Positions 3-24,466 of a DNA stretch of 42,925 bases are shown piece by piece. This DNA is from Aliiroseovarius sp. PrR006 (GTDB lineage: Bacteria > Pseudomonadota > Alphaproteobacteria > Rhodobacterales > Rhodobacteraceae). The notes under the pieces are model-generated. The model was not told the DNA's origin. It ran no database searches and saw only the letters and a program-made list of their open reading frames with translations. Every line of letters begins with the position of its first letter. Positions within the stretch are counted from its first letter, which is position 1. The DNA is taken from positions 1-42,925 of the forward strand of contig NZ_JAAGOY010000011.1 in the NCBI RefSeq assembly GCF_010500215.1. The letters are read 5' to 3'. Made by a program: the position numbers and the translations under genes.

Positions 3-1178
3 ATGGCTAAGGAAAAGTTTGAACGCGGTAAACCGCACGTTAACATCGGCACGATTGGTCACGTTGACCACGGCAAGACGACGCTGACGGCAGCTATCAC
101 CAAATTCTTTGGTGACTTCAAAGCATACGACGAGATCGACGGTGCACCGGAAGAAAAAGCCCGCGGCATCACCATCTCGACTGCTCACGTTGAGTACGAG
201 ACCGAGAACCGCCACTATGCGCACGTTGACTGCCCCGGCCACGCCGACTACGTCAAAAACATGATCACCGGTGCGGCCCAGATGGACGGCGGCATTCTGG
301 TTGTGAACGCAGCTGACGGCCCCATGCCGCAGACCCGCGAGCACATCCTGCTGGCGCGTCAGGTTGGTGTACCTGCGCTGGTAGTCTTCATGAACAAAGT
401 TGACCAGGTAGACGACGAAGAGCTGCTCGAGCTGGTTGAGATGGAAGTTCGTGAACTGATGAACGAATACGACTTCCCGGGCGACGACATGCCGATCATT
501 GCTGGTTCGGCTCTGGCCGCTATGGAAGGCAAGAACCCGGAAATCGGTGAAGAGAAAATCCGCGAGCTGATGGCTGCTGTGGACGAGTACATCCCGACCC
601 CGGATCGTCCGGTTGACGGCGACTTCCTGCTGCCGATCGAAGACGTGTTCTCGATCTCGGGCCGTGGTACTGTTGTAACCGGTCGTGTTGAGCGTGGTGT
701 TGTGAATGTTGGCGACGAGATCGAAATCGTTGGCATCAAAGACACTCAGAAAACCACCTGTACCGGTGTTGAAATGTTCCGCAAGCTGCTGGATCGCGGT
801 GAAGCAGGCGACAACGTTGGCGTTCTGCTGCGCGGCATCGACCGTGAAGCTGTTGAGCGTGGCCAGGTTCTGTGTAAGCCGGGTTCGGTTAACCCGCACA
901 CCAAGTTCGAAGCCGAGGTCTACATCCTGACCAAGGAAGAAGGCGGCCGTCACACCCCGTTCTTCGCGAACTACCGTCCGCAGTTCTACTTCCGTACCAC
1001 CGACGTGACCGGTACTGTTGAGCTGCCTGCTGGCACCGAAATGGTTATGCCGGGCGACAACCTGAAGTTCAACGTCGAGCTGATCGCTCCGATCGCCATG
1101 GAAGAGAAGCTGCGCTTCGCGATCCGTGAAGGCGGCCGCACCGTTGGTTCGGGCGTTGTCTCGAAGATCATCGACTAA
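3..1178 (+). CDS. tuf: Translation elongation factor Tu, copy 1
   Basis: EF-Tu is the cytoplasmic GTPase that carries aminoacyl-tRNA to the ribosomal A site. The 391-residue protein has the full GTPase set: GHVDHGKT (residues 19-26), DCPGH (76-80), NKVD (131-134) and the SAL motif near 169-171, followed by domains 2 and 3; the length is normal for the family. The protein is identical to that of copy 2 at 22207-23382. The DNA differs at eight synonymous positions, all between 698 and 1034. Only two bases precede the start codon in this window, so the upstream context and Shine-Dalgarno sequence cannot be seen. It is followed by a structured 3' UTR and a terminator, so it probably ends its operon. 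Identification is certain. Confidence 0.99.
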
Positions 1179-1229
1179 GAACGCCCAGCGTTCTTAGGGC
1201 GACAGGTGAATTGGCGTAGCCAGTTCACC
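1176..1229 (+). other. Two tandem hairpins in the tuf1 3' UTR
   Basis: The stop codon itself opens a 9-bp perfect stem (1176-1184 with 1188-1196). It is followed by an 11-bp stem with one G-U pair (1205-1215 with 1219-1229). Together with the terminator at 1252-1273 they form three consecutive hairpins. Both stems are preserved after tuf copy 2 (23380-23400 and 23409-23433), where two loop bases of the second hairpin differ but the stem does not. Neither has a T-run, so they are not terminators; RNA stability or a 3'-UTR-derived small RNA are possible roles. Confidence 0.75.
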
Positions 1230-1249
1230 AAGAGCCTGAGAAGATAAGA

Positions 1250-1278
1250 AAAGGGCTGCCACCAGGCGGCCCTTTTTG
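1250..1278 (+). terminator. Rho-independent terminator of tuf1
   Basis: A 9-bp stem (1252-1260 with 1265-1273, one G-U pair) with an ACCA loop is followed by five T. The identical structure follows tuf copy 2 at 23454-23482. Confidence 0.92.
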
Positions 1279-1365
1279 CGTTGGGGTGAAGGGCGATGCC
1301 GCCTGAGGTGGGTGCTTTTTCGGCACCAGCACCAACCTTAGAAGAAAAGTGGGGATAGATATAGT

Positions 1366-1395
1366 TTGTTGGTTGCCTCCTGGGCTGGCTATAAC
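1366..1395 (+). promoter_or_regulatory. Possible promoter of the outer-membrane beta-barrel gene
   Basis: TTGTTG at 1366-1371 is separated by 18 bp from TATAAC at 1390-1395, about 57 bp before the start codon. The spacing is slightly long and the -35 match is partial, so this is only a candidate. Confidence 0.35.
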
Positions 1396-1452
1396 TTTAA
1401 AAGTGTAGGGAGTGCGGCAGCTAAGTCTGCTAATTGAAAAAAAGGGGGATTA

Positions 1453-2040
1453 ATGATGGGATTTAAGTCAAAGGCTATCGCCGCCGCAATTGGCGTTGCT
1501 TGTGCGTCAAGCGCAGCTCAGGCTGAAGGCTATTTTGGTGTGGCGTTGGACGGAGGCAAGGCCACGTCTTCGACCGGCTATTCGCATGATAAGTTCATGC
1601 CTGGCGTCGCGGTCGTTTTGGGGAACCGTATCAACAACGGTAATTTCTTCTACGGCTATGAAGCTAGTGCATCACTTACGCTTAATGGAGCCTTTGAAGA
1701 ATGTGACGGTTTCAACCCGGCACCGGTATTGTGTAAACAGACCGCCAATCTGCGCCTGATGGGTGTCGTTGGCCAGCAAGTGGGCGACTATGATCTTTAT
1801 GGTAAGTTGGGCTACGGCGCTGTGTTTGGAGATTTCGCGGATTCGCCGTTTAGCGTCGCCAGTGGGCACGTCAAAGGTCTTTCGGTCGGTGTGGGCGCAA
1901 GCCGCCAGTTGAACGACACAACCAAGCTGTTTGGCGAAGTCCTGTATGATGCCTATCACAACAGTAGCGGCCAGCCGGGTGGATATAGCAGCGAATACAC
2001 CAACGTGAACCTGCGTCTGGGCGTGATGCGCTCGTTCTGA
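1453..2040 (+). CDS. Small outer-membrane beta-barrel protein
   Basis: This 195-residue protein begins with a clear signal peptide, with probable cleavage after AQA near residue 24. Alternating hydrophobic and polar strands follow, and it ends in Phe, the usual signal for the BAM machinery in outer-membrane barrels. The size suits an eight-stranded OmpA/OmpW-like or opacity-like barrel. Two cysteines in one predicted loop (EEC and VLC, about ten residues apart) could form a disulfide. A purine-rich Shine-Dalgarno sequence lies at 1440-1448; ATG at 1453 is followed directly by a second ATG at 1456, and either may start. It sits between the terminator of tuf1 and the NYN gene, and has no counterpart at the tuf2 locus. 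Its exact role is unknown. Confidence 0.8.
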   Translation: MMGFKSKAIAAAIGVACASSAAQAEGYFGVALDGGKATSSTGYSHDKFMPGVAVVLGNRINNGNFFYGYEASASLTLNGAFEECDGFNPAPVLCKQTANLRLMGVVGQQVGDYDLYGKLGYGAVFGDFADSPFSVASGHVKGLSVGVGASRQLNDTTKLFGEVLYDAYHNSSGQPGGYSSEYTNVNLRLGVMRSF

Positions 2041-2112
2041 TCCTTCAGGCAGCGTCGGCAGGGGCAGAGCTTAATCTGCACCGCGTGACCTTCTTAGTTG
2101 ATTATCAATGCA

Positions 2113-2140
2113 AGGGGCTGCTGTTTGGTGGCCCTTTTTG
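2113..2140 (+). terminator. Terminator after the beta-barrel gene, resembling the tuf terminator
   Basis: A 7-bp stem (2115-2121 with 2128-2134, two wobble pairs) is followed by five T. The sequence around it is a recognisable diverged relative of the tuf terminator at 1250-1278, including the GGCTGC and GGCCCTTTTTGC parts. Confidence 0.75.
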
Positions 2141-2201
2141 CTTTGTCCAAACGCATCGAATGGGGGCAGAATGTGGCGTAGAATTGACTGATGCAAAGAT
2201 G

Positions 2202-2222
2202 TTGAAAGTCAGAGGTCTTCAA
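2202..2222 (+). promoter_or_regulatory. Inverted repeat TTGAA-N11-TTCAA before NYN gene 1
   Basis: A 5-bp inverted repeat spans 21 bp, 36 bp before the start codon. The same element with the same spacing precedes the paralogue at 23508-23528, and most of the surrounding 65 bp is conserved between the two. Because neighbouring sequence upstream has diverged, the conservation suggests a regulatory site such as an operator or promoter, but no regulator is known. Confidence 0.45.
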
Positions 2223-2257
2223 TTTAAGCGTGTTGTAAGTTTTGAGCGGACACAGGT

Positions 2258-2896
2258 ATGCGCATATTATTATTGCTCCTTTTTTATAGCCTGACGGTTT
2301 TCTCGGGCCTATTCACTATAGCGGCGTTCTATTTCCCGGATTGGTCTGAATATCGGATTCCTTTGGCTTCGGTGTTTGTGGCCAGTCTGCTTTTGCTAAT
2401 TATGCTGCTAAAGCCGAATGAGCGGCGTGAAACGCCTACGAAAAAACGGCGAGGATCACTATCGCAAGCGCGGATTGTTGTCGACGGTTCAAATGTCATG
2501 CACTGGCAAAACGGAGAGCCAAGCTTCGCGCCTTTGCACGATGTGGTGGGAGAGCTTAAGCGACTTGGGTTTATGCCGGGTGTCATCTTCGACGCAAATG
2601 CAGGATACCTGCTGGTTGGAAAATATCAGGACGATGACAAGCTAGCCAAGCGCTTGAAACTGCCCGAGAACGCGGTTGTCGTGGTTGCAAAAGGAACCCC
2701 TGCAGATCAGATTATTCTTGATGCCGCAAGGAATCTAAACGCCATTGTCGTGACGAATGATCGCTTCCGAGACTGGGGCGAGGATTATCCTGAGATCCAT
2801 AAACGTGGCTTTCTCATTCGTGGTGGATACAAATCTGGAAAGCTATGGCTGGATGGGAAAGTCAAGATGGCACAGAAGACGCAGTCGCGACAGTAG
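2258..2896 (+). CDS. Membrane-anchored NYN/Zc3h12a-like ribonuclease, copy 1
   Basis: The 212-residue protein has two predicted membrane helices (about 2-24 and 34-51), a short basic linker rich in Lys and Arg (about 52-68), and then a PIN/NYN-type domain of the Zc3h12a (Regnase-1) ribonuclease family from about 73 to 200. The expected acidic residues are present: D76 in VDGSNV, D112 in FDAN, D150, and D168 in TND. This implies a metal-dependent RNase on the cytoplasmic face of the inner membrane. The 201-residue paralogue follows tuf copy 2 at 23566-24171, and the catalytic domains are about 80 percent identical by eye. The start is supported by the matching N-terminus and upstream sequence of the paralogue. 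It is convergent with the methyltransferase, 14 bp away. RNA target unknown. Confidence 0.85.
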   Translation: MRILLLLLFYSLTVFSGLFTIAAFYFPDWSEYRIPLASVFVASLLLLIMLLKPNERRETPTKKRRGSLSQARIVVDGSNVMHWQNGEPSFAPLHDVVGELKRLGFMPGVIFDANAGYLLVGKYQDDDKLAKRLKLPENAVVVVAKGTPADQIILDAARNLNAIVVTNDRFRDWGEDYPEIHKRGFLIRGGYKSGKLWLDGKVKMAQKTQSRQ

Positions 2897-2910
2897 CGGC
2901 GAACGCGGTT

Positions 2911-3750
2911 TCAGGTCTTCAATGGGATGTGCCGCGCGCGTTCTGCGTGGGGGTGTTTTACCTGCGTTTCGATCAACTCGTTCATGGGCTGTTCGACATC
3001 AAAGCCCGCGGCGATCAGGCGCTGTTTGGCGCGTTCAAGCAGGTCCAGACGCTGCTCGTGGGAAAGCGGCGTGACCATACCGACTTTCAGCGCGTCGGCG
3101 TCGATCGGCTTGGTGTTCAGAAAGACAATCGTGTGCTCTGGTACGAAGGCCACCGGGGTGAAATAGTCGGCCAGAAGCTCCATCTGGATCGCGATCCAGG
3201 GAAGGCGCCAGAACAGATAGTCCTGCTGCACGACCAGCGCACGGCCGGGGATCAGCGACAGAAAGAAGGTGCGCATCATCGCGTCCATCGTCCGCGTGGA
3301 TTTCGAGGCATCCATGACCAGGATCTCAATCGGGCCGTCTTCCCAGATCTGATCCTCGATCTGGCCCGGGTGGAGCGAGATGCGCTCGGTCCAGGGGGTC
3401 AGAAGGTCGATTGCCAGGTCCAGTGTTTCGGTACCCTCAAACGGCGCAATGCCCCGCGGGTACAAGAAGTGTTCTTTTGCGGCTTCATTGATGCCGAAAC
3501 GGTCAAATGCATGGATCAGCCCAGTGTGGCCCGCATATTGGTGGCCAGCGGCCAGCCGGGCGGTGGACCCGCCGACATAACAGCCCAGATCAACCACGGC
3601 CCCTTCGTCCTGCATCCATTCTGACGTGGCCCAGAAATAGAAACGCTGCTCTGCCGGGGCCAACATGGTCGGCACCTTTGCCGCTTGCGCCAGCAGGGTT
3701 GGATCTAGCGCGTCCCATGGGTGGTCTTTGAATATGGCGGGATCGGTCAT
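2911..3750 (-). CDS. Class I SAM-dependent methyltransferase-like protein
   Basis: This 279-residue protein has the SAM-binding motif I in VVDLGCYVGGS (about residues 52-62) and an acidic end of beta-2 in FDRFG. The motif ILVMDASKSTRTMDAM with a following LIPG and VVQQDY segment resembles the Methyltransf_24/TylF-like group, whose substrates are often sugars or small metabolites. No signal peptide or membrane segment is seen, so it is probably cytoplasmic. It is the only gene on the minus strand in the first 28 kb and is convergent with the NYN ribonuclease; its start lies about 100 bp from tRNA-Trp. The substrate cannot be told from the sequence. Confidence 0.75.
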   Translation of the reverse strand: MTDPAIFKDHPWDALDPTLLAQAAKVPTMLAPAEQRFYFWATSEWMQDEGAVVDLGCYVGGSTARLAAGHQYAGHTGLIHAFDRFGINEAAKEHFLYPRGIAPFEGTETLDLAIDLLTPWTERISLHPGQIEDQIWEDGPIEILVMDASKSTRTMDAMMRTFFLSLIPGRALVVQQDYLFWRLPWIAIQMELLADYFTPVAFVPEHTIVFLNTKPIDADALKVGMVTPLSHEQRLDLLERAKQRLIAAGFDVEQPMNELIETQVKHPHAERARHIPLKT

Positions 3751-3810
3751 TAAGAATGCCTGTTTTTAGGGGTAGGTGAAAGATAGCACCAAAAATGTCA
3801 ATGAAAGCTC

Positions 3811-3837
3811 TTGATAATCCCGGCGTGCTGGCATAAT
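3811..3837 (+). promoter_or_regulatory. Candidate promoter of tRNA-Trp
   Basis: TTGATA at 3811-3816 and CATAAT at 3832-3837 lie just upstream of the tRNA, which begins at 3853. The spacer is short (15 bp, or 16 if the -35 is read as CTTGAT). Confidence 0.45.
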
Positions 3838-3852
3838 CGCTGTCTCGGTCAT

Positions 3853-3928
3853 AGGGGTATAGCTCAGTTGGTAGAGCGACGGTCTCCAAAACCGTAGGTC
3901 CCGGGTTCGAGCCCTGGTGCCCCTGCCA
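3853..3928 (+). tRNA. trpT: tRNA-Trp (anticodon CCA)
   Basis: A complete 76-nt cloverleaf is visible. The acceptor stem AGGGGTA pairs with TGCCCCT with one G-U pair. The anticodon stem ACGGT/ACCGT encloses the loop CTCCAAA with anticodon CCA, the TTCGAGC T-loop is present, and the 3' CCA is encoded. In many Alphaproteobacteria tRNA-Trp directly precedes secE; here the DUF1007-NicO pair separates them. Confidence 0.98.
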
Positions 3929-4020
3929 CCACCTTCACCAACATCAAAGATCAAGCGATGCCTCGCTTAGCGGTCCTGTGACTGTTGTCGTGCTGCATGG
4001 TCCACGCTACATCCTAGAGC

Positions 4021-4680
4021 ATGAGTTTCTTGCGTTCGACCATTCTGTCCCTTCCGGTGATTGCGGCCTCGGCTTTGCCTTTGGCCAGCCATCCGCACGT
4101 CTTTATTGATGCTGGTGCGAATCTGTTGTTCGACGATGCGGGACAACTGGCTGGGGTGCGGGTGTTCTGGGCCTATGACGAGTTCTATTCCCTTCTGCTG
4201 GTCGAAGATAACGGTCTGGATGCGGACGGGGATGGCGTGCCGGAACAGGCCGCGCTGGACGCTTATGCAGGTAAGGACGTGGACTGGGCGGCGGGCTTTC
4301 CCGGCGACCTGTATCTGAAGAATGCAGGTGCCGATGTGCCGCTGTCCGGGCCGGTCGAACACGGCATGCGGTTTGAGGACGGGCGCGTGATCAGTTGGCA
4401 CATCCGCCCGCTGGAAACGCGTCTGACGGTTGGGGCCGAGCCGCTTCTGGTACAGATCTACGATCCCACCTTTTTCGTCGCCTACGATGTGCGCCTGCCG
4501 GTCACCGTCCAAGGCCGAGACGATTGCGCGGTCGAGCAGGTGCCTGCAGATCTGAATGCCGCTTACGACAAGGTTGAGAGCTTGCTGTATGGTCCCGACA
4601 GTGTCGAGTATTCCGAAGATAGCTATCCCGAAGTGGGCGACCTGTTTGCTGATCAGTTGTTGCTGACATGCTCCGAGTAA
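4021..4680 (+). CDS. DUF1007 family periplasmic protein, partner of the NicO transporter
   Basis: The 219-residue protein has an N-terminal signal peptide ending around the ASALPLA region. The mature protein opens with the family-typical SHPHVFID segment, which offers two histidines for metal binding. DUF1007 proteins are periplasmic and are usually encoded beside NicO-type nickel/cobalt transporters; the Haemophilus ZevAB pair, with the same composition, handles zinc. The downstream NicO gene overlaps it by 13 bp, so the two are translationally coupled and probably act as one export system. The start at 4021 fits the signal peptide, although no strong Shine-Dalgarno sequence precedes it. Metal specificity cannot be decided from the sequence. 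Confidence 0.85.
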   Translation: MSFLRSTILSLPVIAASALPLASHPHVFIDAGANLLFDDAGQLAGVRVFWAYDEFYSLLLVEDNGLDADGDGVPEQAALDAYAGKDVDWAAGFPGDLYLKNAGADVPLSGPVEHGMRFEDGRVISWHIRPLETRLTVGAEPLLVQIYDPTFFVAYDVRLPVTVQGRDDCAVEQVPADLNAAYDKVESLLYGPDSVEYSEDSYPEVGDLFADQLLLTCSE

Positions 4681-5582
4681 TTTCGATTCTGTCACTTGCC
4701 GTTTTGGTGACCGGTGTCGCTCTGTGGGCGACGGGCGCGCTGGAGGGTGTGTCGGTTTGGGCGGCAGATTGGCAGCGGCAGGTGCAGACCTCGATGGCGC
4801 GGGGATTGCGAGCACTCAGGGCAGGGGAGCCGGGCGCGTTGTTCGCGCTGCTGTCGATCTGCTTTTCCTACGGGTTTTTTCACGCGGTCGGGCCGGGGCA
4901 CGGTAAGGTGTTGATCGGGGGCTATTCTCTGGCCTCGCGCTCGACCATGTGGCGGATGTCGTCGGTGGCGCTGCTGTCGTCCCTTGCGCAGGGGCTGAGC
5001 GCCATCGTGCTGGTGTTCGCCGGGGTGCTGCTTTTGAACCTGACGCGGCAGCAGATGGTCGGGTTGGCTGAGGAGTGGTTCGCGGATGCGAGCTATGCCG
5101 CCATTGCGTTGATCGGTCTCTATCTGTTGGTGCGGGGGGCGCGAAAGCTGTTGCGGGTGGCGCGCAGAAAGGCGCATGCGCACGACCACGATCACCACGA
5201 CGGGCACACCCATTGCCACGACTGCGGCCATGCCCATGCGCTGGGCCTGCATGATGTGGAGACCGCAGGAAGCTGGCGCGAGCTTGCCGTCCTGATCGCG
5301 GGTGTCGCCATTCGTCCCTGTACAGGTGCGCTGTTCCTTTTGGTGCTGACATGGCAGATGGGTCTAGTCTGGCAGGGCATTTTGGGTGTCGTCGCGATGG
5401 CGCTGGGAACTGCCAGTGTGACCATTGTGACGGCCTTGGTCGCGGTCGGTCTGCGTGGCGGGGTGTTGGCGGGGCTTCTTCAGGGCGGAGGCAGCATGGC
5501 CGCACGCGCCGTCCCTTTGCTGGAAATCGCCGCTGGCGCTCTGGTTTTGGTCGTCGCTTTGGGCCTTTTAGGTGTGGTTTGA
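4668..5582 (+). CDS. NicO/RcnA-type nickel/cobalt (or zinc) transporter
   Basis: This 304-residue inner-membrane protein has about six to seven hydrophobic helices. It carries the NicO signature HAVGPGHGK (72-80) and a second conserved RPCTGA (216-221). Between them lies a histidine- and aspartate-rich loop (about 170-195) with eleven His and two Cys, a likely metal-sensing or metal-delivery segment. It overlaps the DUF1007 gene by 13 bp. Known relatives export Ni/Co or transport Zn; the direction here is inferred. It sits between tRNA-Trp and secE with no visible terminator, so read-through into secE is possible. Confidence 0.88.
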   Translation: MLRVISILSLAVLVTGVALWATGALEGVSVWAADWQRQVQTSMARGLRALRAGEPGALFALLSICFSYGFFHAVGPGHGKVLIGGYSLASRSTMWRMSSVALLSSLAQGLSAIVLVFAGVLLLNLTRQQMVGLAEEWFADASYAAIALIGLYLLVRGARKLLRVARRKAHAHDHDHHDGHTHCHDCGHAHALGLHDVETAGSWRELAVLIAGVAIRPCTGALFLLVLTWQMGLVWQGILGVVAMALGTASVTIVTALVAVGLRGGVLAGLLQGGGSMAARAVPLLEIAAGALVLVVALGLLGVV

Positions 5583-5592
5583 CGGTGAAGGC

Positions 5593-5621
5593 TTGAAAAC
5601 CCCGTGCGCATTGCGTAATTG
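5593..5621 (+). promoter_or_regulatory. Candidate promoter of secE-nusG
   Basis: TTGAAA at 5593-5598, a 17-bp spacer and TAATTG at 5616-5621 would start a leader of about 24 nt before secE. The -10 match is partial but lacks the final T, like the other promoters in this window. Confidence 0.4.
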
Positions 5622-5651
5622 ACCGCCTATCATATGAAAGGCCGAAAACAG

Positions 5652-5843
5652 ATGACCAATCCGTTGCAATTCATCCAGCAAGTGCGCGCCGAGGTGTCCA
5701 AAGTCACCTGGCCGACCCGCCGTGAGGTTCTTTTGACCACCGGCATGGTGTTCGTGCTGGCTGCTCTTACGGCATTGTTCTTTTCGCTTGTGGATCTTGG
5801 CATCCGCAGCGGTCTGTCCGCCGTGCTGGGCTACTTCGGCTAA
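5652..5843 (+). CDS. secE: Preprotein translocase subunit SecE
   Basis: SecE clamps SecY in the inner-membrane SecYEG channel. With the ATG at 5652 the protein has 63 residues, the normal size for the single-helix SecE of this group. It shows the amphipathic segment with EVSKVTWPTRREV followed by one membrane helix. GAAAGG at 5636-5641 lies 10 bp before this ATG. Upstream in-frame starts (ATG at 5634, TTG at 5619) would add residues not expected in the family. It is followed by nusG, as in most bacteria. Confidence 0.95.
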   Translation: MTNPLQFIQQVRAEVSKVTWPTRREVLLTTGMVFVLAALTALFFSLVDLGIRSGLSAVLGYFG

Positions 5844-5904
5844 CACACCGTCTTTGCCCTTGAAATGAGCGTGTTTCGGGGGTAGTTCGGGCATCACTTC
5901 GGGA

Positions 5905-5942
5905 AGGGCGTGTGGCGAATCAAGTTGCACGCCGATTTTTTG
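5905..5942 (+). terminator. Terminator-like hairpin between secE and nusG
   Basis: A 6-bp GC-rich perfect stem (5907-5912 with 5928-5933) and a 15-nt loop are followed two bases later by six T. It lies between two genes usually co-transcribed, so it would act as a partial terminator or attenuator. Confidence 0.5.
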
Positions 5943-5998
5943 TTCCCGAAAACGAAATTGAAAATGTCCCTTCGGGGCGCAGGAATGCAGAGGCTGAC

Positions 5999-6532
5999 AT
6001 GGCGAAACGGTGGTATTCGGTAAGCGTGCTGTCGAACTTCGAAAAGAAGATCGCAGAGGCAATCCGTGCTTCGGTCGAAGAAAAAGGTCTTGAGGACCAA
6101 ATCGACGAAGTGCTGGTGCCGACCGAAGAGGTCATCGAGGTGCGCCGCGGTAAGAAGGTCACGACCGAGCGTCGCTTCATGCCGGGTTACGTTCTGGTCC
6201 ACATGGAAATGTCGGACGAGGGCTATCACCTGATCATGTCGATCAACCGCGTCACCGGCTTCCTGGGTCCGCAGGGCCGTCCGATGCCGATGCGCGATGC
6301 CGAAGTGCAGGGCATCCTGGGTCGCGTCGAAGAGGGTGCGGAAGCGCCGAAGCTGATGATCAGCTTCGAAATCGGCGAGAAAGTCGCCGTGACCGATGGC
6401 GCGTTCGAAGGCTTCGACGGTCTGGTCGAAGAAGTGGACGAAGAAGGCCAGCGCCTGAAGGTTGCTGTGTCGATCTTTGGCCGGGAAACCCCGGTCGAAC
6501 TGGATTACACGCAGGTCTCGAAGCAGGGCTGA
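5999..6532 (+). CDS. nusG: Transcription termination/antitermination factor NusG
   Basis: NusG binds elongating RNA polymerase and couples it to Rho or the ribosome. The 177-residue protein begins with RWYSVSVLSNFEKKIAEAI, has the PGYVLVHM strand of the NGN domain, and ends with a KOW domain containing EKVAVTDGAFEGFDG. The ATG at 5999, with AGAGG six bases upstream, matches the family start. A longer in-frame reading from 5912 would overlap the upstream hairpin and add an unconserved extension. The leader to rplK holds two palindromes. Confidence 0.97.
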   Translation: MAKRWYSVSVLSNFEKKIAEAIRASVEEKGLEDQIDEVLVPTEEVIEVRRGKKVTTERRFMPGYVLVHMEMSDEGYHLIMSINRVTGFLGPQGRPMPMRDAEVQGILGRVEEGAEAPKLMISFEIGEKVAVTDGAFEGFDGLVEEVDEEGQRLKVAVSIFGRETPVELDYTQVSKQG

Positions 6533-6555
6533 CGTGTTGAAGACGTGGGAGGGGC

Positions 6556-6611
6556 GGTGATCGCGATCACCAATCCAGACCGCGGCAATGAGAGGCAAAG
6601 GGACGCGTCCC
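6556..6611 (+). repeat. Two perfect palindromes in the nusG-rplK leader
   Basis: A 16-bp perfect palindrome (6556-6571, centre TCGCGA) and a 12-bp perfect palindrome (6600-6611, centre ACGCGT) lie in the 105-bp gap before rplK. As RNA they could fold only with small loops. As DNA they could be protein sites. L1 autoregulates this operon in other bacteria by binding the leader mRNA, but I cannot identify an L1 site with confidence. Confidence 0.6.
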
Positions 6612-6637
6612 CGAGCTGTTGTTAAAGGAGAAGCCAA

Positions 6638-7063
6638 ATGGCTAAGAAACTCGCTGGCACGATGAAACTGCAGGTTCCTGCAGGTCAAGCCAACCCCAGC
6701 CCGCCCGTCGGCCCCGCACTGGGTCAGCGCGGCATCAACATCATGGAATTCTGCAAGGCGTTCAACGCCAAGACGCAGGATCTGGAGCCCGGCGCGCCGT
6801 GCCCGACCGTGATCACCTACTACCAGGATAAGTCCTTCTCGATGGACATCAAGACGCCCCCCGCGTCGTACTTCCTGATCAAAGCTGCAGGCCTGAAGTC
6901 GGGTGCAAACAACCCCGGCCGTGAAACCGTTGGTTCGGTTACTGCTGCTCAGGTGAAAGAGATCGCCGAAGCAAAAATGAAAGATCTGAACGCAAACGAC
7001 ATCGACGCTGCGATGCAGATCATCCTGGGCTCGGCCCGCTCCATGGGCATTGAGGTAAAGTAA
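6638..7063 (+). CDS. rplK: 50S ribosomal protein L11
   Basis: L11 shapes the GTPase-associated centre of the large subunit and is needed for RelA activation. The 141-residue protein shows the N-terminal [23 protein letters not shown] segment with its proline-rich hinge, and the C-terminal RNA-binding domain ending in [16 protein letters not shown] at 6624-6630 supports the start. It is separated by one base from rplA, forming the L11 operon. Confidence 0.98.
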
Positions 7064-7064
7064 G

Positions 7065-7763: not shown

Positions 7764-7784
7764 TTTTCTTCAGTTTGAATATAG

Positions 7785-7815
7785 AAAAGGGCGTCCAGAT
7801 TGGGCGCCCTTTTTG
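7785..7815 (+). terminator. Rho-independent terminator of rplKA
   Basis: An 8-bp stem (7789-7796 with 7802-7809, one G-U pair), a five-base loop and five T follow the rplA stop codon by 25 bp. Confidence 0.92.
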
Positions 7816-7836
7816 CGTGTAGCTCATGAGAACATT

Positions 7837-7864: not shown

Positions 7865-7869
7865 CGCTT

Positions 7870-9240: not shown

Positions 9241-9417
9241 CCGAACCTGTCTTGAAGAGGGCCTGAATGCAGGCGTTGTTCTGGGAAAGGTTCAATGGAT
9301 CGGGAGGGAACCCTTGGGCGGGTTTCCATGAATTGGTTCGAACCCCCGTCTCGGACGAGGTGTCGCCGGCGACCCAACGGTTGGCGCCTCAGTTGAGAAA
9401 TGAAAGGTAAATACCTT

Positions 9418-13604: not shown

Positions 13605-17861
<4,257 letters not shown>

Positions 17862-17884
17862 TTAGTGCTGACATAAGATTTGGA

Positions 17885-17915
17885 AGGCCCCGCATTTTGC
17901 GGGGCTTTTCTTTTT
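17885..17915 (+). terminator. Rho-independent terminator of rpoBC
   Basis: A 7-bp perfect GC stem (17887-17893 with 17899-17905), an ATTTT loop and a T-rich tail follow the rpoC stop codon by 25 bp. Confidence 0.94.
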
Positions 17916-17979
17916 GGGCTTGGCGTGTTCGGGAAACGCTGATTAGGTGGCCGAACGCATTCAAGGAAATTACTCCACC

Positions 17980-18846
17980 ATGCCCTCGGACAATTTCAAA
18001 GCCGCCGCGCTGATGACCGGTTCCATGGCCGGCTACACGTTTAACGACGCCTGCATGAAGGTGTTGTCGGTGACGATGCCGCTGGAACAGGCAGTGTTCT
18101 TGCGCGGTGTGGTGACCTGTGTGCTGCTATACATACTGGGACGATATCTGGGCACGATGCGGTTCAACTTATCGGCGCGGGAATGGAAGTTGATCGGTCT
18201 GCGCTGTGTCGGGGAAATGGGGGCAACCTATTGCTTTCTGACCGCGCTGTTTCATATGCCAATCGCCAATGTCACGGCGATCCTGCAGGTGTTGCCTTTG
18301 GTGATCGCTTTGGCCGCGTGGGCATTTCTGTCCGAGCCCCTAGGGTGGCGGAGACTTGCGGCCATTGGCGTGGGGTTCGTCGGCGTGCTTCTGATTATCC
18401 AACCCGGCGCGGGGTTCTCGGTCTGGTCGCTCTATGCGCTGGCCGCGGTCGGCTTCATCACTTTCCGCGATTTGGTGGTGCGCAAACTGTCGCCCGAGAC
18501 ACCGTCGATGACCGTGGCGATCATGGCGGCGATCTCGATTACCATTGGGTTTGGCGTCGCATCAATCGGGGTCGAGTGGGCGCCGCTTGACGGATTGGGC
18601 GCGTCGATGTTGGGTTTGGCGGCCTTCTTCATTTTCCTGGGTTACCTTTTCTCGGTCATGGTGATGCGGGTGGGCGACATCGCTTTCGCAGCGCCCTTCC
18701 GCTATACTGGTCTGATCTGGGCGCTGATCCTTGGCTTGGTTCTGTTCAACGAGTGGCCGAACCAGCTGACCCTGATCGGTGCTGCGATTGTTGTCGGCAC
18801 CGGTCTGTTCACCTTGTTCCGTGAACGCAAGGCTGCGCAACGCTGA
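17980..18846 (+). CDS. DMT-superfamily (EamA) transporter
   Basis: The 288-residue protein is almost entirely hydrophobic, with about ten predicted membrane helices in two EamA repeats. The first repeat ends near FLSEPLGWRRLAAIGVGFVGVLLI and the second near LFNEWPNQLTLIGAAIVVGTGLF, both typical signatures. EamA proteins export or exchange small metabolites across the inner membrane; the substrate cannot be inferred here. The ATG at 17980 has AAGGA 12 bases upstream; a GTG at 17947 in frame is a weaker alternative. It is an insertion between the rpoC terminator and the str operon promoter. Confidence 0.85.
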   Translation: MPSDNFKAAALMTGSMAGYTFNDACMKVLSVTMPLEQAVFLRGVVTCVLLYILGRYLGTMRFNLSAREWKLIGLRCVGEMGATYCFLTALFHMPIANVTAILQVLPLVIALAAWAFLSEPLGWRRLAAIGVGFVGVLLIIQPGAGFSVWSLYALAAVGFITFRDLVVRKLSPETPSMTVAIMAAISITIGFGVASIGVEWAPLDGLGASMLGLAAFFIFLGYLFSVMVMRVGDIAFAAPFRYTGLIWALILGLVLFNEWPNQLTLIGAAIVVGTGLFTLFRERKAAQR

Positions 18847-18896
18847 CCGGGCAGGGGTTGCTGGCTTGGGAAAGCCTTGTAATTCAGGGCGTGCTG

Positions 18897-18925
18897 TTGA
18901 CAGTACCATCGCAACCCCTTATACG
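18897..18925 (+). promoter_or_regulatory. Promoter of the str operon (rpsL-rpsG-fusA-tuf2)
   Basis: A consensus TTGACA at 18897-18902, a 17-bp spacer and TATACG at 18920-18925 are followed by a CGCG-rich start region. The -10 lacks the final T. This leaves a leader of about 220 nt. Confidence 0.8.
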
Positions 18926-19015
18926 CGCGAGCATCCAGCTGGGTGTAACCCGGCTATCCAAGTATTGAGGGATCAAGTTCGGGCTACTTTGAAGCGCCGA
19001 TCCTCTGTGAACCAA

Positions 19016-19061
19016 CCGCGACGTTTGCCTCGGAATGGAAACGCTCGCGGGTTTTCGTTTT
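19016..19061 (+). terminator. Attenuator-like terminator in the rpsL leader
   Basis: An 11-bp stem (19016-19026 with 19039-19050, one bulged C at 19044) and a 12-nt loop are followed by GTTTTCGTTTT. It lies between the str promoter and rpsL, 92 bp before the start codon, so it would act as a leader attenuator. S7 controls this operon in Escherichia coli at a different site. Confidence 0.7.
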
Positions 19062-19152
19062 GTGGGTTGTCATAATCCTGAAACGCGAAACAGATTTAAC
19101 CGCGTGGGGGCGTCCCTGCGTAGACTGAGTTGAGAAACGGGAAAAGAGCCCT

Positions 19153-19524
19153 ATGCCAACGATCCAACAGCTGATCCGCAAGCCGCGTCAGCCCAAAGTC
19201 AAGCGTTCCAAGTCGCAGCACCTGGAATCTTGCCCCCAGAAGCGCGGTGTATGTACCCGCGTTTACACCACGACCCCGAAAAAGCCGAACTCGGCTATGC
19301 GTAAAGTTGCGAAGGTTCGCCTGACCAACGGTTTCGAGGTTATCTCCTACATCCCCGGTGAAAGCCACAACCTTCAGGAGCACTCGGTGGTTCTGATCCG
19401 TGGTGGTCGTGTGAAAGACCTTCCGGGTGTCCGCTACCACATCCTGCGTGGTGTTCTGGATACCCAGGGCGTCAAAGACCGTAAGCAACGTCGTTCGAAA
19501 TACGGCGCCAAGCGTCCGAAGTAA
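19153..19524 (+). CDS. rpsL: 30S ribosomal protein S12
   Basis: S12 lies at the decoding centre and affects fidelity. The 123-residue protein contains the conserved [19 protein letters not shown] loop and [20 protein letters not shown], the regions where streptomycin-resistance changes occur elsewhere; the lysines there are the wild-type residues. First gene of the str operon, with rpsG 12 bp downstream. The Shine-Dalgarno sequence is weak (GGGAAAAGAG). Confidence 0.98.
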
Positions 19525-20007
<483 letters not shown>

Positions 20008-20028
20008 CGCCAAGGAAGGACGAACACC

Positions 20029-22146
20029 ATGGCACGCGAATATCCGCTCGAGCTGTACCGCAACTTCGGTATTATGGCTCACATCGATGCAGGTAAAACC
20101 ACCTGCTCCGAGCGTATCCTGTACTACACCGGCAAATCCCACAACATCGGTGAGGTGCACGATGGTGCAGCCACCATGGACTGGATGGAGCAGGAGCAGG
20201 AACGCGGGATCACCATCACCTCGGCTGCGACGACCACTTTCTGGGAACGCACCGAAGACGGTGAAACTGCTCAGACGCCCAAGCACCGCATGAACATCAT
20301 CGACACCCCCGGCCACGTTGACTTCACCATTGAAGTTGAGCGTTCGCTGGCGGTTCTCGATGGCGCTGTCTGTGTTCTGGACGCCAACGCTGGTGTTGAG
20401 CCCCAGACCGAAACCGTGTGGCGTCAGGCTGACCGCTACAAGGTTCCGCGTATGGTGTTCGTCAACAAGATGGACAAGATCGGCGCTGACTTCTTCAACT
20501 GTGTTGAGATGATCGAAGACCGCACCGGCGCCCGCGCCGTACCGGTTGGCATTCCGATCGGTGCAGAAACCGAGCTGGAAGGTCTGATCGACCTGGTAAA
20601 CATGGAAGAATGGCTGTGGCAGGGTGAAGACCTTGGCGCATCGTGGGTTCGTGTTCCGATCCGCGACGAGCTGTCGGACATGGCCAACGAGTGGCGCGAG
20701 AAGATGATCGAAGCCGCCGTCGAGCAAGACGACGACGCGATGGAAGCCTATCTGGAAGGCAACGAACCTGACGTACCGACCCTGCGCGCTCTGCTGCGCA
20801 AAGGTACTCTGGCACTGGACTTCGTTCCGGTTCTGGGTGGTTCGGCTTTCAAAAACAAAGGTGTCCAGCCGCTGCTGAACGCTGTAATCGACTATCTGCC
20901 CAGCCCGCTGGACGTTGTTGATTACATGGGCTTTAAACCCGGTGACGAAACTGAAACCCGTGACATCGCCCGCCGTGCGGACGACGACATGGCTTTCTCG
21001 GCGCTGGCGTTCAAAATCATGAACGACCCCTTCGTTGGCTCGCTGACCTTTACCCGCATCTACTCGGGTGTCCTGAACAAAGGCGACACGCTTTTGAACT
21101 CGACCAAAGGTAAGAAAGAGCGCGTTGGTCGTATGATGATGATGCACTCGAACGATCGTGAAGAAATCACGGAAGCGTTCGCAGGTGACATTATCGCACT
21201 GGCCGGTCTGAAAGACACCACCACAGGTGACACGCTTTGCGCCGTCAACGATCCGGTGGTTCTGGAAACCATGACCTTCCCCGACCCCGTTATCGAGATC
21301 GCGGTTGAGCCTAAAACCAAGGCTGACCAAGAGAAGATGTCGCAAGGTCTGGGCCGTCTGGCTGCTGAAGACCCCTCGTTCCGTGTGGAAACTGACATCG
21401 AAAGCGGTCAGACCATCATGAAGGGCATGGGCGAACTTCACCTGGACATCCTGGTGGACCGTCTGAAGCGCGAGTTCAAAGTGGAAGCCAACATTGGTGC
21501 CCCGCAGGTTGCTTACCGCGAGACCATCTCGAAAGCGATCGAGCACACCTACACCCACAAGAAACAGTCGGGTGGTTCGGGTCAGTACGCTGAAGTCAAA
21601 ATGGAAATCATGCCGACTGAAGCGGGCGAAGGCTATTCGTTCGAAAGCCGCATCGTTGGTGGTGCAGTTCCGAAGGAATACATCCCCGGTGTTGAAAAAG
21701 GCATCAACTCGGTTATGGATAGCGGCCCCCTGGCTGGCTTCCCCGTAATCGACTTCAAGGTTGCCTTGAACGACGGTAAGTTCCACGACGTTGACTCGTC
21801 GGTTCTGGCCTTCGAAATCGCTGCACGTATGTGTATGCGCGAAGGTATGCGTTTGGCTGGCGCCAAGCTGCTGGAACCGATCATGAAAGTGGAAGTGATC
21901 ACGCCCGAGGAATACACCGGTGGTATCATCGGTGACCTGACCTCGCGTCGTGGTCAAGTGTCTGGCCAAGAGCCGCGCGGCAACGCCGTAGCGATCGACG
22001 CCAACGTTCCGCTGGCAAACATGTTCGGCTACATCAACACGCTGCGCTCGATGTCTTCGGGCCGTGCGCAGTTCACGATGCAGTTCTCGCATTACGACCC
22101 GGTTCCGCAGAACATCTCGGACGAAATTCAGGCGAAATACGCCTAA
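20029..22146 (+). CDS. fusA: Translation elongation factor G
   Basis: EF-G is the GTPase that drives ribosomal translocation. The 705-residue protein has the P-loop AHIDAGKT (17-24), [13 protein letters not shown], and the domain IV segment [14 protein letters not shown], and ends normally. AAGGAAGGA provides the ribosome binding site. It is followed by a 60-bp gap with a strong hairpin and then tuf copy 2. Confidence 0.99.
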
Positions 22147-22154
22147 TCGAAATA

Positions 22155-22182
22155 GCCGGGCAGTGACCCATTACTGCCCGGC
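22155..22182 (+). promoter_or_regulatory. 10-bp perfect hairpin between fusA and tuf2
   Basis: Bases 22155-22164 pair perfectly with 22173-22182 around an eight-base loop. There is no T-run, so it does not terminate. It could be an mRNA processing or stability element that allows higher tuf expression than fusA. Confidence 0.7.
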
Positions 22183-22206
22183 CCCTCAGATTAACAGGAG
22201 GCCATC

Positions 22207-23382
22207 ATGGCTAAGGAAAAGTTTGAACGCGGTAAACCGCACGTTAACATCGGCACGATTGGTCACGTTGACCACGGCAAGACGACGCTGACGGCAGCTA
22301 TCACCAAATTCTTTGGTGACTTCAAAGCATACGACGAGATCGACGGTGCACCGGAAGAAAAAGCCCGCGGCATCACCATCTCGACTGCTCACGTTGAGTA
22401 CGAGACCGAGAACCGCCACTATGCGCACGTTGACTGCCCCGGCCACGCCGACTACGTCAAAAACATGATCACCGGTGCGGCCCAGATGGACGGCGGCATT
22501 CTGGTTGTGAACGCAGCTGACGGCCCCATGCCGCAGACCCGCGAGCACATCCTGCTGGCGCGTCAGGTTGGTGTACCTGCGCTGGTAGTCTTCATGAACA
22601 AAGTTGACCAGGTAGACGACGAAGAGCTGCTCGAGCTGGTTGAGATGGAAGTTCGTGAACTGATGAACGAATACGACTTCCCGGGCGACGACATGCCGAT
22701 CATTGCTGGTTCGGCTCTGGCCGCTATGGAAGGCAAGAACCCGGAAATCGGTGAAGAGAAAATCCGCGAGCTGATGGCTGCTGTGGACGAGTACATCCCG
22801 ACCCCGGATCGTCCGGTTGACGGCGACTTCCTGCTGCCGATCGAAGACGTGTTCTCGATCTCGGGCCGTGGTACTGTTGTAACCGGTCGTGTTGAGCGTG
22901 GCGTTGTTAACGTTGGCGACGAAATCGAAATCGTTGGCATCAAAGACACTCAGAAAACCACCTGTACCGGTGTTGAAATGTTCCGCAAGCTGCTGGATCG
23001 CGGTGAAGCAGGCGACAACGTTGGTGTTCTGCTGCGCGGTATCGACCGTGAAGCTGTTGAGCGTGGCCAGGTTCTGTGTAAGCCGGGTTCGGTTAACCCG
23101 CACACCAAGTTCGAAGCCGAGGTCTACATCCTGACCAAGGAAGAAGGCGGCCGTCACACGCCGTTCTTCGCGAACTACCGTCCGCAGTTCTACTTCCGTA
23201 CCACCGACGTGACCGGTACTGTTGAGCTGCCTGCTGGTACCGAAATGGTTATGCCGGGCGACAACCTGAAGTTCAACGTCGAGCTGATCGCTCCGATCGC
23301 CATGGAAGAGAAGCTGCGCTTCGCGATCCGTGAAGGCGGCCGCACCGTTGGTTCGGGCGTTGTCTCGAAGATCATCGACTAA
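22207..23382 (+). CDS. tuf: Translation elongation factor Tu, copy 2
   Basis: This is the str-operon copy of EF-Tu, 391 residues and identical in protein sequence to copy 1 at 3-1178. The first 695 bp of the two genes and the last 144 bp are identical; the eight silent differences fall between positions corresponding to 698 and 1034 of copy 1. ACAGGAGG seven bases upstream is a near-perfect Shine-Dalgarno sequence. The near identity extends through the 3' UTR and terminator up to 23490, after which the two loci diverge until the NYN gene. Confidence 0.99.
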
Positions 23383-23482
23383 GAACGCCCAGCGTTCTTA
23401 GGGCGACCGGTGAATTGGCCCAGCCAGTTCACCAAGAGCCTGAGAAGATAAGAAAAGGGCTGCCACCAGGCGGCCCTTTTTG
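23380..23482 (+). terminator. Three-hairpin 3' UTR and terminator of tuf2
   Basis: Hairpins at 23380-23400 and 23409-23433 are followed by the Rho-independent terminator (stem 23456-23464 with 23469-23477, then five T). This copies the arrangement after tuf1. Confidence 0.9.
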
Positions 23483-23507
23483 CGTTGGGGGGGCATATTA
23501 TGAGATG

Positions 23508-23528
23508 TTGAAACTCGGAGATTTTCAA
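23508..23528 (+). promoter_or_regulatory. Inverted repeat TTGAA-N11-TTCAA before NYN gene 2
   Basis: The same element and spacing occur before the paralogue at 2202-2222. Here the arms extend to TTGAAA and TTTCAA. Confidence 0.45.
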
Positions 23529-23565
23529 TTTAGGCGTGTCGAGGGAATTTTGAACGGACACAAAT

Positions 23566-24171
23566 ATGCGCAAACTTTTGGTAGCACTTTTCTATAGCGC
23601 GACGGTTTTTTCAGGCCTCTTCACTGGCGCTGCGTTTCTTCACGCGGATTGGTCTGTGTACTTGATGCCTTCGATTTTGGTATTTGCCACAAGTTTGATC
23701 TCGCTGCTCAGGCTTCTGAAGCCAAAAGAACGGCGTGTAACGCGTGCGAAAAGGCGGGCGGTTGTAGACGGCTCGAATGTCATGCACTGGCAAAATGGAG
23801 AGCCATGTTTCGAACCGCTGCACGATGTCGTGGGTGAGCTTAAGAAGCGTGGGTTTGCTCCGGGCGTTATATTTGACGCCAACGCGGGATACTTGCTGGT
23901 GGGCAAGTATCAGGATGATGACAAGCTGGCACAGCGGTTGAAGCTGCCCGAAGATTCGGTTGTTGTGGTATCGAAGGGAAGTTCGGCGGATCCGATCATT
24001 CTTGAGGCCGCGCGGGATATGAAGGCCATCATTGTAACCAACGATCGATATCGCGACTGGGCTGAAGATTTTTCAGAACTTCACGAACCGGGTTTCCTCA
24101 TTCGGGGCGGATACAAATCTGGAAAACTGTGGCTGGATGGCAAGATTGATGCGGCGCAGAAGCCAGACTAA
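23566..24171 (+). CDS. Membrane-anchored NYN/Zc3h12a-like ribonuclease, copy 2
   Basis: This 201-residue paralogue of the protein at 2258-2896 has the same plan: two N-terminal membrane helices (about 2-25 and 33-51), a basic linker, and the Zc3h12a-type RNase domain from about 65. Its acidic residues are D68 (VDGSNV), D104 (FDAN), D142 and D160 (TND). The linker is about ten residues shorter than in copy 1. Identity is highest in the catalytic segments (DGSNVMHWQNGEP, DANAGYLLVGKYQDDDKLA, IRGGYKSGKLWLDGK) and low in the membrane part. It lies about 80 bp behind the tuf2 terminator and has its own upstream element. The target RNA is not known. Confidence 0.85.
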   Translation: MRKLLVALFYSATVFSGLFTGAAFLHADWSVYLMPSILVFATSLISLLRLLKPKERRVTRAKRRAVVDGSNVMHWQNGEPCFEPLHDVVGELKKRGFAPGVIFDANAGYLLVGKYQDDDKLAQRLKLPEDSVVVVSKGSSADPIILEAARDMKAIIVTNDRYRDWAEDFSELHEPGFLIRGGYKSGKLWLDGKIDAAQKPD

Positions 24172-24459: not shown

Positions 24460-24466
24460 TACGGAT

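Follow-up and report, generated by a model that had tools for sequence, protein, structure and literature searches.

The window analysed here is one entire contig of Aliiroseovarius sp. PrR006 (42,925 nucleotides). It starts 2 bases 5' of the first of two tuf genes, so the sequence upstream of that copy is unreadable. tuf copy 1 (3–1178) lies at what we call site T, the tRNA-Trp site, and tuf copy 2 (22207–23382) at site S, the str operon; both are on the forward strand and form a direct repeat 21 kb apart. They differ at 8 of 1176 bases and encode identical EF-Tu proteins, and the first 108 bases after their stop codons differ at three. Full-length EF-Tu of relatives is 90–99% identical, and tuf identity is higher within this genome than between species, the pattern of a concertedly evolving pair.

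Each tuf 3' UTR, as read from the sequence, holds three forward-strand hairpins: one overlapping the stop codon (1176–1196 in copy 1, 23380–23400 in copy 2), a middle one (1194–1239, 23398–23443) and a terminator-like one with T5 (1249–1277, 23453–23481). Free folding keeps the middle and last hairpins; in that fold the stop-codon region pairs with sequence further away. Simple terminator scans gave no hit at either tuf terminator. An earlier note on this DNA had correctly described the near-identical genes and their three-hairpin UTRs. It also placed a gene for a NYN ribonuclease directly after each UTR, which holds for copy 2 but not for copy 1. There the cassette is non-contiguous: an outer-membrane beta-barrel gene (OMP, 195 aa; 1453–2040, forward strand; OMP_b-brl, PF13505, E 1.4e-7) and a terminator-like hairpin flagged by the terminator scan (2112–2137, forward strand) separate the UTR from the NYN gene.

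Site T continues with the NYN1 upstream region (2197–2257) and NYN1 (2258–2896), both on the forward strand, a methyltransferase-like gene on the reverse strand (2911–3750; Pfam match below cut-off) and, as the anchor of the site, tRNA-Trp(CCA) (3853–3928, forward strand). The methyltransferase-like gene borders site T in 12 of the 17 relatives read there. At site S, all on the forward strand, follow the NYN2 upstream region (23503–23565), NYN2 (23566–24171), the cold-shock protein gene csp (24467–24673; PF00313, E 6.1e-24) and rpsJ, which anchors this site (24914–25222). The two upstream regions are homologous, and by BLASTN that of NYN1 resembles both its NYN2 counterpart and the region preceding NYN at site T of G265 (G numbers denote genomes, L numbers loci). 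At both sites tuf is separated from NYN by terminator-like hairpins, and the stretch just upstream of NYN is similar. Candidate promoters can be read upstream of NYN1 (TTGAAA-N17-TAAGCG) and NYN2 (TTGAAA-N17-TAGGCG); promoter scans of both regions left them unflagged.

Predicted membrane-anchored ribonucleases

NYN1 and NYN2 are the only matches in the genome to RNase_Zc3h12a (PF11977; gathering score 23): NYN1 at residues 70–180 (E 7.1e-12, 45.8 bits) and NYN2 at residues 62–171 (E 9.4e-14, 51.9 bits). An AlphaFold model of NYN2 (pLDDT 93) has N-terminal helices at residues 2–25 and 27–51, then the NYN fold. Sequence and model both bear out the earlier description of a membrane-anchored ribonuclease with two helices and a Zc3h12a domain. 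The protein is most likely an inner-membrane, metal-dependent endoribonuclease; its catalytic domain is predicted to face the cytoplasm because the two helices are followed by a Lys/Arg-rich linker.

The closest folds to the model are ZC3H12/Regnase (MCPIP1) and KHNYN (E down to 3e-7), which share the PF11977 domain. All 32 aligned sequences have D68, D142, D160 and D164, and these residues align with the catalytic aspartates of ZC3H12C. Unlike these proteins, NYN1 and NYN2 have no CCCH zinc finger (they contain zero and one cysteine, respectively) and carry a two-helix membrane anchor instead. Rae1 of Bacillus belongs to another Pfam family than PF11977, and the NYN_YacP profile appears for neither NYN protein at E up to 1. 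Rae1/YacP is likewise a bacterial NYN/PIN-like RNase, acting on mRNA in a ribosome-dependent manner (PMC11346440, accessible part). The CRISPR-associated NYN of Bacteroides fragilis shares the NYN fold, conserved active-site aspartates and endoribonuclease activity, the last being predicted for our proteins; it lies in a CRISPR locus, and the accessible part of the source mentions no membrane anchor (PMC11346440), whereas NYN1 and NYN2 are predicted to be anchored and lie behind tuf. No VapBC-type antitoxin gene is found directly upstream of either NYN gene, the upstream genes being OMP for NYN1 and tuf for NYN2. Literature searches found no description of the NYN group present in Aliiroseovarius.

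The two copies have diverged most in the membrane part, as the earlier note held: protein identity is 61% there and 78% in the RNase domain, and DNA identity is 72%. A dN/dS of 0.06 between the RNase domains indicates purifying selection, and the catalytic aspartates are intact in both copies. RNase-domain dS is 2.2 (saturated) between NYN1 and NYN2, and 1.63 and 1.64 between each and its G259 relative. NYN1 and NYN2 are therefore as far apart as each is from G259, and not the product of a simple recent duplication.

An RNA element behind tuf and groEL

Covariation supports the middle UTR hairpin as an RNA motif, and its internal loop is conserved. Covariance model R2 recovers copy 1 (E 1.3e-11, copy 1 itself being among the model rows) and copy 2 (E 2.2e-9); copy 1 is also covered by model R1 and alignments A2 and A3. 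In copy 1 an outer stem is followed by the internal loop GACA/AAGA and an inner hairpin; the common form of the loop is G(A/G)CA / GA(G/A)A. Across 15 hand-picked rows, eight of nine pairs change on both sides, against 0 of 500 shuffles; covariation within the genus alone is weaker (4 of 11 pairs). After removal of identical rows, alignment A2 left out six regex matches judged false (three in G254, two in G258, one in G267) and two near-duplicates (G250_T, G254_T). Alignment A3 includes one row without a readable upstream gene (G127). The G.A pairs in the element led us to consider a kink-turn.

Within the genus the element lies behind tuf in 17 of the 19 genomes read; two contig-end copies in G255 (L055, L056) were left out, and the tuf 3' ends of G256 and G264 were not among the data. 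It lies behind groEL in 16 of 21 genus genomes, once weakly, a second groEL piece in G263 (L310) being left out. Among other genera, it was found behind tuf in 4 of 19 sampled, none of them NYN-bearing genomes; two G197 regions of 52–53 bases ending at a contig edge were left out. Four other genera have it behind groEL, two with NYN (G043, G052) and two without (G003, G075). The element stands behind tuf in four genus genomes with no NYN match (G248, G251, G253, G266) and in those four other genera, and we reject functional co-occurrence of NYN and the UTR element.

In 12 of 21 genus genomes all R2 matches at E up to 0.05 are behind tuf or groEL. The other nine have 1 to 18 further matches, and in G248 18 of 21 lie away from both genes. 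The five of these stray matches that we inspected (L279–L282, L287) resemble the dispersed palindrome, a sequence very similar to the element that is scattered through other Rhodobacteraceae and some genomes of the genus. In several loci the palindrome lies within a reading frame that, judged by eye rather than by profile, encodes an IS3-type transposase. Multi-copy short matches had suggested an rRNA mimic; they are palindromes, and the idea was dropped. In the present genome no genome-wide repeat was seen: R2 finds only the two tuf copies and one degenerate groEL copy, and the exact element pattern occurs at one place outside the tuf UTRs. REP and other palindromic 3' UTR elements, as presented in the accessible part of PMC5082802, are similar in being hairpins behind genes, and the dispersed palindrome adds to the likeness. 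The element differs in its confinement to tuf and groEL in 12 of 21 genus genomes, its conserved internal loop and its covarying stems.

Rfam 15 gave no gathering-level match to the element in the window or at 12 loci, only sub-threshold ones, and literature searches found no description of a tuf/groEL motif. The RNA motif is the more novel part of the finding. Most likely it would stabilise the 3' ends of very highly expressed mRNAs or bind a protein there. A binder of the motif, once found, would make control of both mRNAs directly testable.

Differing sites and mosaic genes

The genes behind tuf differ in site between genomes. OMP is at site T here and behind the str-operon tuf (site S) in G251, G252 and G257. 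csp occupies site S in this and four other genomes, and site T in G259. The post-tuf sequences of the two sites are identical over all 260 bases compared in G259 and G262 (the G259 contigs end in the repeat), and nearly identical for 232 bases in G254.

BLASTN against relatives divides each site into blocks. At site T, 1190–2044 is most like site S of G257 (83%), 2197–2358 like site T of G265 (71%), 2481–2873 like site T of G259 (77%) and 2896–4000 like site T of G257 (89%). At site S, 23523–23656 is like site T of G257 (75%), 23746–24737 like site T of G259 (80%) and 24296–25300 like site S of G257 (97%), the last two blocks overlapping within csp. The earlier note had called for a tree of both NYN copies; their two halves give conflicting ones. 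In the anchor half (78 columns) the NYN genes of this genome group with G252, G257 and G265 (support 98/100), and in the RNase half with G259, G250, G258, G260 and G263 (100/99). The swapped groupings fail AU tests (p 0.0065 and 0.0087; the groups were named after the identities had been seen). The RNase-half tree splits NYN1 from NYN2, with a NYN1+NYN2 pair not rejected (AU p 0.38). Both NYN genes are mosaics, with an anchor half like that of close relatives and an RNase half like that of a more distant species. The locus lends itself to following, in nature, how the domains of a membrane-anchored RNase are swapped.

Probable exchange between sites, and other explanations

NYN, tuf and the UTR look like one cassette, and the analysis separates two things. 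We consider it probable that the near-identical tuf copies serve as homology arms, and that the accessory genes which follow them change places between sites and are passed among strains rather than held in a selected NYN–tuf partnership. The differing sites of NYN, OMP and csp, the near-identity of tuf and its UTRs, the mosaic NYN genes, the intact catalytic residues and the purifying selection are observed; the arms, the recombination mechanism and the order of events are our reconstruction. Recombination would keep the two tuf genes almost identical, and their 3' ends would act as arms through which NYN, OMP and csp could move from one site to the other and from strain to strain. NYN-bearing relatives have one NYN behind one tuf, and this genome carries NYN at both. 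Counted against the exchange reading are the position of NYN downstream of tuf in all 13 NYN-bearing relatives and the S10-cluster loci described below. Also counted against it are the dS of 2.2, the 78-column anchor tree, the contig start at tuf copy 1 and the invisibility of recombination endpoints inside tuf, the arms being identical.

Related events are known elsewhere. Gene conversion between tufA and tufB is documented in Salmonella, where two near-identical tuf genes are homogenised by recombination (PMC5485169, accessible part), as we infer here. In Salmonella 762 kb separate the copies, which are inverted; in this genome they form a direct repeat at a distance of 21 kb, and the genes behind tuf vary among genomes. 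In Gammaproteobacteria and Bacilli the secE-rpoBC-str-S10 cluster has been rearranged, and there too accessory genes have entered at its operon junctions (PMC8046335, accessible part). That source considers duplication, transposons or horizontal transfer, whereas we propose tuf copies as arms and find the cargo at one or the other of two sites in a single genus. A bolder joint proposal is tentative, and we regard it as rather doubtful. The hairpin with its G(A/G)CA / GA(G/A)A loop, which closely follows the stop codons of both tuf and groEL and precedes a terminator, may be what a single RNA-binding factor recognises on both of these abundant mRNAs. That factor would set their stability or fate in Rhodobacteraceae, and the two genes would form a post-transcriptional regulon not described before. 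The tuf copies carrying the hairpin would at the same time be recombination arms that ferry the NYN RNase between sites, letting anchor and nuclease halves swap.

The earlier note proposed that the pairing of an RNase with each tuf is selected, the enzyme being tied to translation, for example acting on RNA of membrane-bound ribosomes. On this account NYN would work with EF-Tu or with such ribosomes, and Rae1/YacP would be a functional analogue. The linkage does extend beyond this genome: NYN matches 14 of 21 genus genomes including this one, and in all 13 relatives it lies downstream of a tuf (about 2 kb in G267; the tuf 3' end was read in 12, and G257 by its UTR only). The purifying selection on NYN also fits. 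However, each of the 13 has a single copy (11 at site T, two at site S), NYN stands behind both tuf genes in this genome only, and 7 of 21 genomes, two of them incomplete, have no match. The genus linkage amounts to one shared history rather than 13 independent events, and OMP and csp vary in site just as NYN does. Outside the genus, tuf is within 1.5 kb of NYN in 0 of 29 fetched loci (drawn from 67 other-genus genomes with a NYN match) and in the flanks, up to 6 kb, of 0 of 74 named loci. Some outside loci do place NYN within the S10 ribosomal cluster: those of G141 and G237 and, among the six named Sulfitobacter loci, four. This location, at 2 of the 29 fetched loci, argues mildly for a translation link (post hoc binomial P about 0.028–0.044, or 0.22–0.28 if both loci share descent). 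Overall we find a selected pairing unlikely; cargo is the better reading, and NYN is most likely an optional enzyme of RNA turnover, not a partner of EF-Tu. The proposed shuffling is a caution that a neighbourhood beside repeated genes is poor ground for inferring function.

NYN could instead be a conflict gene, a diversifying RNase directed at phages or rivals, which would explain why it is patchy, why its domains are swapped and why two divergent RNase types exist. It is present in 68 of 248 genera sampled, the distribution of the two types conflicts with the core-gene tree (AU p 9.8e-8), and relatives occur on three plasmid records, one predicted mobilizable. However, the low dN/dS is not positive selection, and no neighbour is common to most genera (neighbours were clustered, not defence-annotated; the widest cluster covers 10 of 80 named loci). 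PADLOC models (best E 0.026), PHROG (best E 0.0094) and phage records (no match) lend defence, phage or toxin readings no support. We judge this account as improbable as the selected pairing.

Regnase-1 acts on stem-loops of 3' UTRs, and NYN has ZC3H12/Regnase and KHNYN as its closest folds and hairpins adjoining its gene, so it might recognise the tuf and groEL hairpins. This is very unlikely given the genus genomes without a NYN match and the four other genera sampled in which the element stands behind tuf, and the even split of the other genera with a groEL element. Mis-joining of short reads at the tuf repeat is hardly credible: the contig begins at tuf and several relatives' contigs end there, but a 21-kb unique stretch between the copies fixes their order, NYN1 and NYN2 are too different as DNA to be confused, and the OMP–NYN1 and NYN2–csp junctions lie outside the repeat.

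The tuf sites and the distribution of NYN genes

The window, a whole contig of 42925 bases, carries, in order, tuf (3-1178), an OMP gene, NYN1 (2258-2896, + strand), a methyltransferase-like gene and tRNA-Trp and, further on, fusA, a second tuf (22207-23382), NYN2 (23566-24171, + strand), csp and rpsJ. We call the place behind tuf on the tRNA-Trp side site T and that in the str operon site S. The two tuf genes are identical at all but 8 of 1176 bases, and 3 differences fall in the first 108 UTR bases. The earlier note described a duplicated cassette of tuf, 3' UTR and NYN RNase, and its sequence observation is right with one correction: at copy 1 the OMP gene, absent from that account, separates the UTR from NYN1. 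Two known cis-regulatory RNAs lie elsewhere in the window, Rhodo-rpoB (9297-9387) and the alphaproteobacterial L2 leader (30444-30511).

NYN is present in 14 of 21 Aliiroseovarius genomes (relatives are given as G-numbers, fetched loci as L-numbers). Where tuf 3' sites were read, it occupies site T in G250, G252, G254, G257, G258, G259, G260, G261, G262, G263 and G265 and site S in G255 and G267; both sites are occupied in the window's genome only. A tuf 3' end is visible upstream of NYN in 12 of 13 single-copy relatives, about 2 kb upstream in G267; the exception is G257, whose contig ends inside the UTR. Among the seven genus genomes without an NYN match, both sites were read in G248, G251, G253 and G266, one in G249 and none in G256 and G264, which are incomplete. 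In G250, three tRNA-Trp genes lie within a 6.5-kb stretch behind NYN (L073, G250:C3).

In the wider family, sampled at one genome per genus, 68 of 248 genomes have an NYN match; class-wide, 4 of 385 reach E 1e-8 or better, and these all belong to the same family, one being the window's genome. The strong form of the proposal that the tuf–NYN pairing is selected is not supported: 13 of the 14 NYN-bearing genus genomes have exactly one NYN match, and tuf was within 1.5 kb in none of the 29 loci fetched from other genera, out of 67 further genomes with a match. For 20 of these 29 loci about 6 kb was read on each side, and the neighbours vary by genus. Among the best 80 of 454 NYN loci, 6 show the Aliiroseovarius arrangement. 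No tuf is seen in the other 74, whose flanks extend to at most 6 kb depending on the contig, and the broadest cluster of neighbours is found in 10 of the 80. The literature found, mostly outside subscription journals, holds no description of this NYN group beside tuf.

In G141, G237 and 4 of 6 Sulfitobacter loci, NYN lies antisense within the S10 ribosomal cluster (L093, L101, L114, L117, L119, L129), adjoining a gene read as rplP. Two of the 29 other-genus loci have this location (binomial P about 0.028–0.044, or 0.22–0.28 if both share descent). A mild attraction of NYN to this translation gene cluster is conceivable and would count against the favoured reading by shuffling. The open frame at 35532-36413 and its neighbours, in the ribosomal cluster region of the window, are common to G141, G237 and the NYN-carrying Sulfitobacter loci, suggesting that the S10 cluster holds other accessory genes.

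Probable exchange of genes between tuf sites

In the most likely reading, one of shuffling, the tuf copies act as arms and the genes behind them are accessory cargo. NYN is not alone in occupying different sites. G251, G252 and G257 have OMP at site S, the window's genome at site T; csp is at site T in G259 and at site S in the window's genome, G249, G251, G252 and G257. Sequence blocks have different nearest relatives. At site T, 1190-2044 (UTR and OMP) resembles G257 site S (83%), 2197-2358 (NYN upstream region and anchor) G265 site T (71%), 2481-2873 (RNase domain) G259 site T (77%) and 2896-4000 (methyltransferase-like gene and tRNA) G257 site T (89%). At site S, the tuf end and UTR resemble G265 site S (94%), 23523-23656 (NYN upstream region and anchor) G257 site T (75%) and 23746-24737 G259 site T (80%); from 24296 onward the sequence resembles G257 site S (97%), overlapping the G259-like block in csp.

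Judged by conflicting trees of their halves, the NYN genes are chimeric. The anchor half places both with G252, G257 and G265 (98/100), the RNase half with G259, G250, G258, G260 and G263 (100/99), and the core-gene tree places the window's genome with G257, G251 and G265 (84/97). The AU test, with groups chosen after pairwise identities were known, rejects four alternatives: joining the RNase half to the G257 group (p 0.0065), joining the anchor half to G259 (p 0.0087), uniting all of the window's RNase type in the anchor half (p 0.0007), and monophyly of that type in the core-gene tree (p 9.8e-8). It does not reject NYN1 and NYN2 as mutual nearest in the RNase half (p 0.38).

Within single genomes, post-tuf sharing between sites ranges from none recognisable (G260, G263, G266) to all 260 compared bases (G259, G262), as expected if conversion tracts starting in tuf end at different places. 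Conversion between tuf copies is established for Salmonella (PMC5485169), and the same operon cluster is known to undergo rearrangement (PMC8046335).

The NYN proteins

NYN1 and NYN2 score above gathering for PF11977 and are its sole matches in this genome. A high-confidence predicted structure of NYN2, from an alignment of 32 relatives, has a two-helix N-terminal hairpin and an NYN domain; among solved structures this domain comes closest to ZC3H12B, ZC3H12C, MCPIP1 and KHNYN, and protein-only RNase P ranks lower. D68, D142, D160 and D164 are invariant in all 32 aligned sequences, and the aspartate-bearing motifs align with ZC3H12C. Because a Lys/Arg-rich linker follows helix 2, the positive-inside rule would place the nuclease domain in the cytoplasm. 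The protein probably acts as an endoribonuclease of the inner membrane, expressed from a putative promoter of its own, with terminators between NYN and tuf. PMC11346440 describes both Rae1, which depends on the ribosome, and NYN RNases whose aspartates are conserved.

Both genes look functional at the sequence level. The NG86 estimate of dN/dS between NYN1 and NYN2 is 0.06 for the RNase domain against 0.33 for the anchor. Across 15 pairs, anchor values span 0.10–0.52; domain values span 0.06–0.24 in the 11 pairs with finite domain dS, which is saturated in the other four (both window copies against G257, and G261 against G254 and G262). The RNase-domain dS of NYN1 and NYN2 is 2.2, near saturation and not below the distance to G259 (1.6); the pair is therefore old, or a part of it was imported, and recent copying is unlikely.

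A structured element behind tuf and groEL

Of all that was observed, the UTR motif deserves most attention. Behind tuf come a hairpin overlapping the stop codon, a middle element (1194-1239 and 23398-23443) and a terminator-like hairpin. In the middle element, an outer stem and an inner hairpin enclose a symmetric internal loop, usually G(A/G)CA / GA(G/A)A; the window's copies deviate, with AAGA on the 3' side and GACC in copy 2. In 15 diverse copies picked by hand (12 from tuf, one from groEL, one from G127 with its context unread, and one dispersed palindrome), 8 of the 9 pairs tested show changes on both sides. Paired cells reach 88.9% vs 71.0% in shuffles and the covariation score was reached by 0 of 500 shuffles, with a structure that was derived from the tested sequences and is thus favoured in the slid control. 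The genus alone (22 copies) is weaker, with 4 of 11 pairs, matched by 168 of 500 shuffles, and a covariation score reached by none of 500. Besides the window's copies, the loci listed for this covariation-supported motif, which also follows groEL, are L289-L309, L313, L323, L328 and L336; some supplied model rows, and their own scores are partly by construction. No Rfam family matches the element at gathering level, and no description of a tuf/groEL motif was found in literature mostly outside subscription journals.

At E < 0.01, R2, a covariance model of the element, detects it after 29 of the 37 tuf 3' ends; 17 of the 19 genus genomes read have it, the exceptions being G257, cut by contig ends, and G267, where it is absent. 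Some tuf ends carry two or three copies. In G252 (L049, L050), the inner hairpin of the tuf UTR seems to have been lost, and the outer stem and GAGA remain; a weak second copy follows at site S. Behind groEL the element is present in 16 of 21 genus genomes, at E < 0.01 in 15 of them; the five without it there are G248, G253, G255, G256 and G261. It lies 21–25 bases past the stop codon in seven measured cases, is in tandem in G251, G254, G257, G263 and G267, and repeats the tuf order of stop-codon hairpin, element and terminator. In 205732 bases searched, all 21 groEL-region matches lie at most 160 bases behind groEL on the same strand. In other genera, the element follows tuf at 7 of 37 ends, spread over 4 of the 19 genera, and groEL at 4 of 29 ends; the four genera in which it follows tuf are all outside the 68 with NYN. 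The element is probably a 3'-end stabiliser or protein site of abundant messages.

The element is not confined purely to tuf and groEL, and may be related to a mobile palindrome. Nine of 21 genus genomes have 1 to 18 further R2 matches (E up to 0.05), and a very similar palindrome is dispersed across other genera. With the same internal loop, it reads CCC-GGCA-GGCGATTTGC..GCAAATCTGCC-GAGA-GGG in other Rhodobacteraceae and in G248 and G249 (L192, L194, L201, L206, L208 and others; L279-L282, L287). It resembles the Rickettsia palindromic elements. In L205 (1317-1982), the palindrome lies in frame within an IS3-type transposase frame, recognised by eye, between CYDNA and VETFF.
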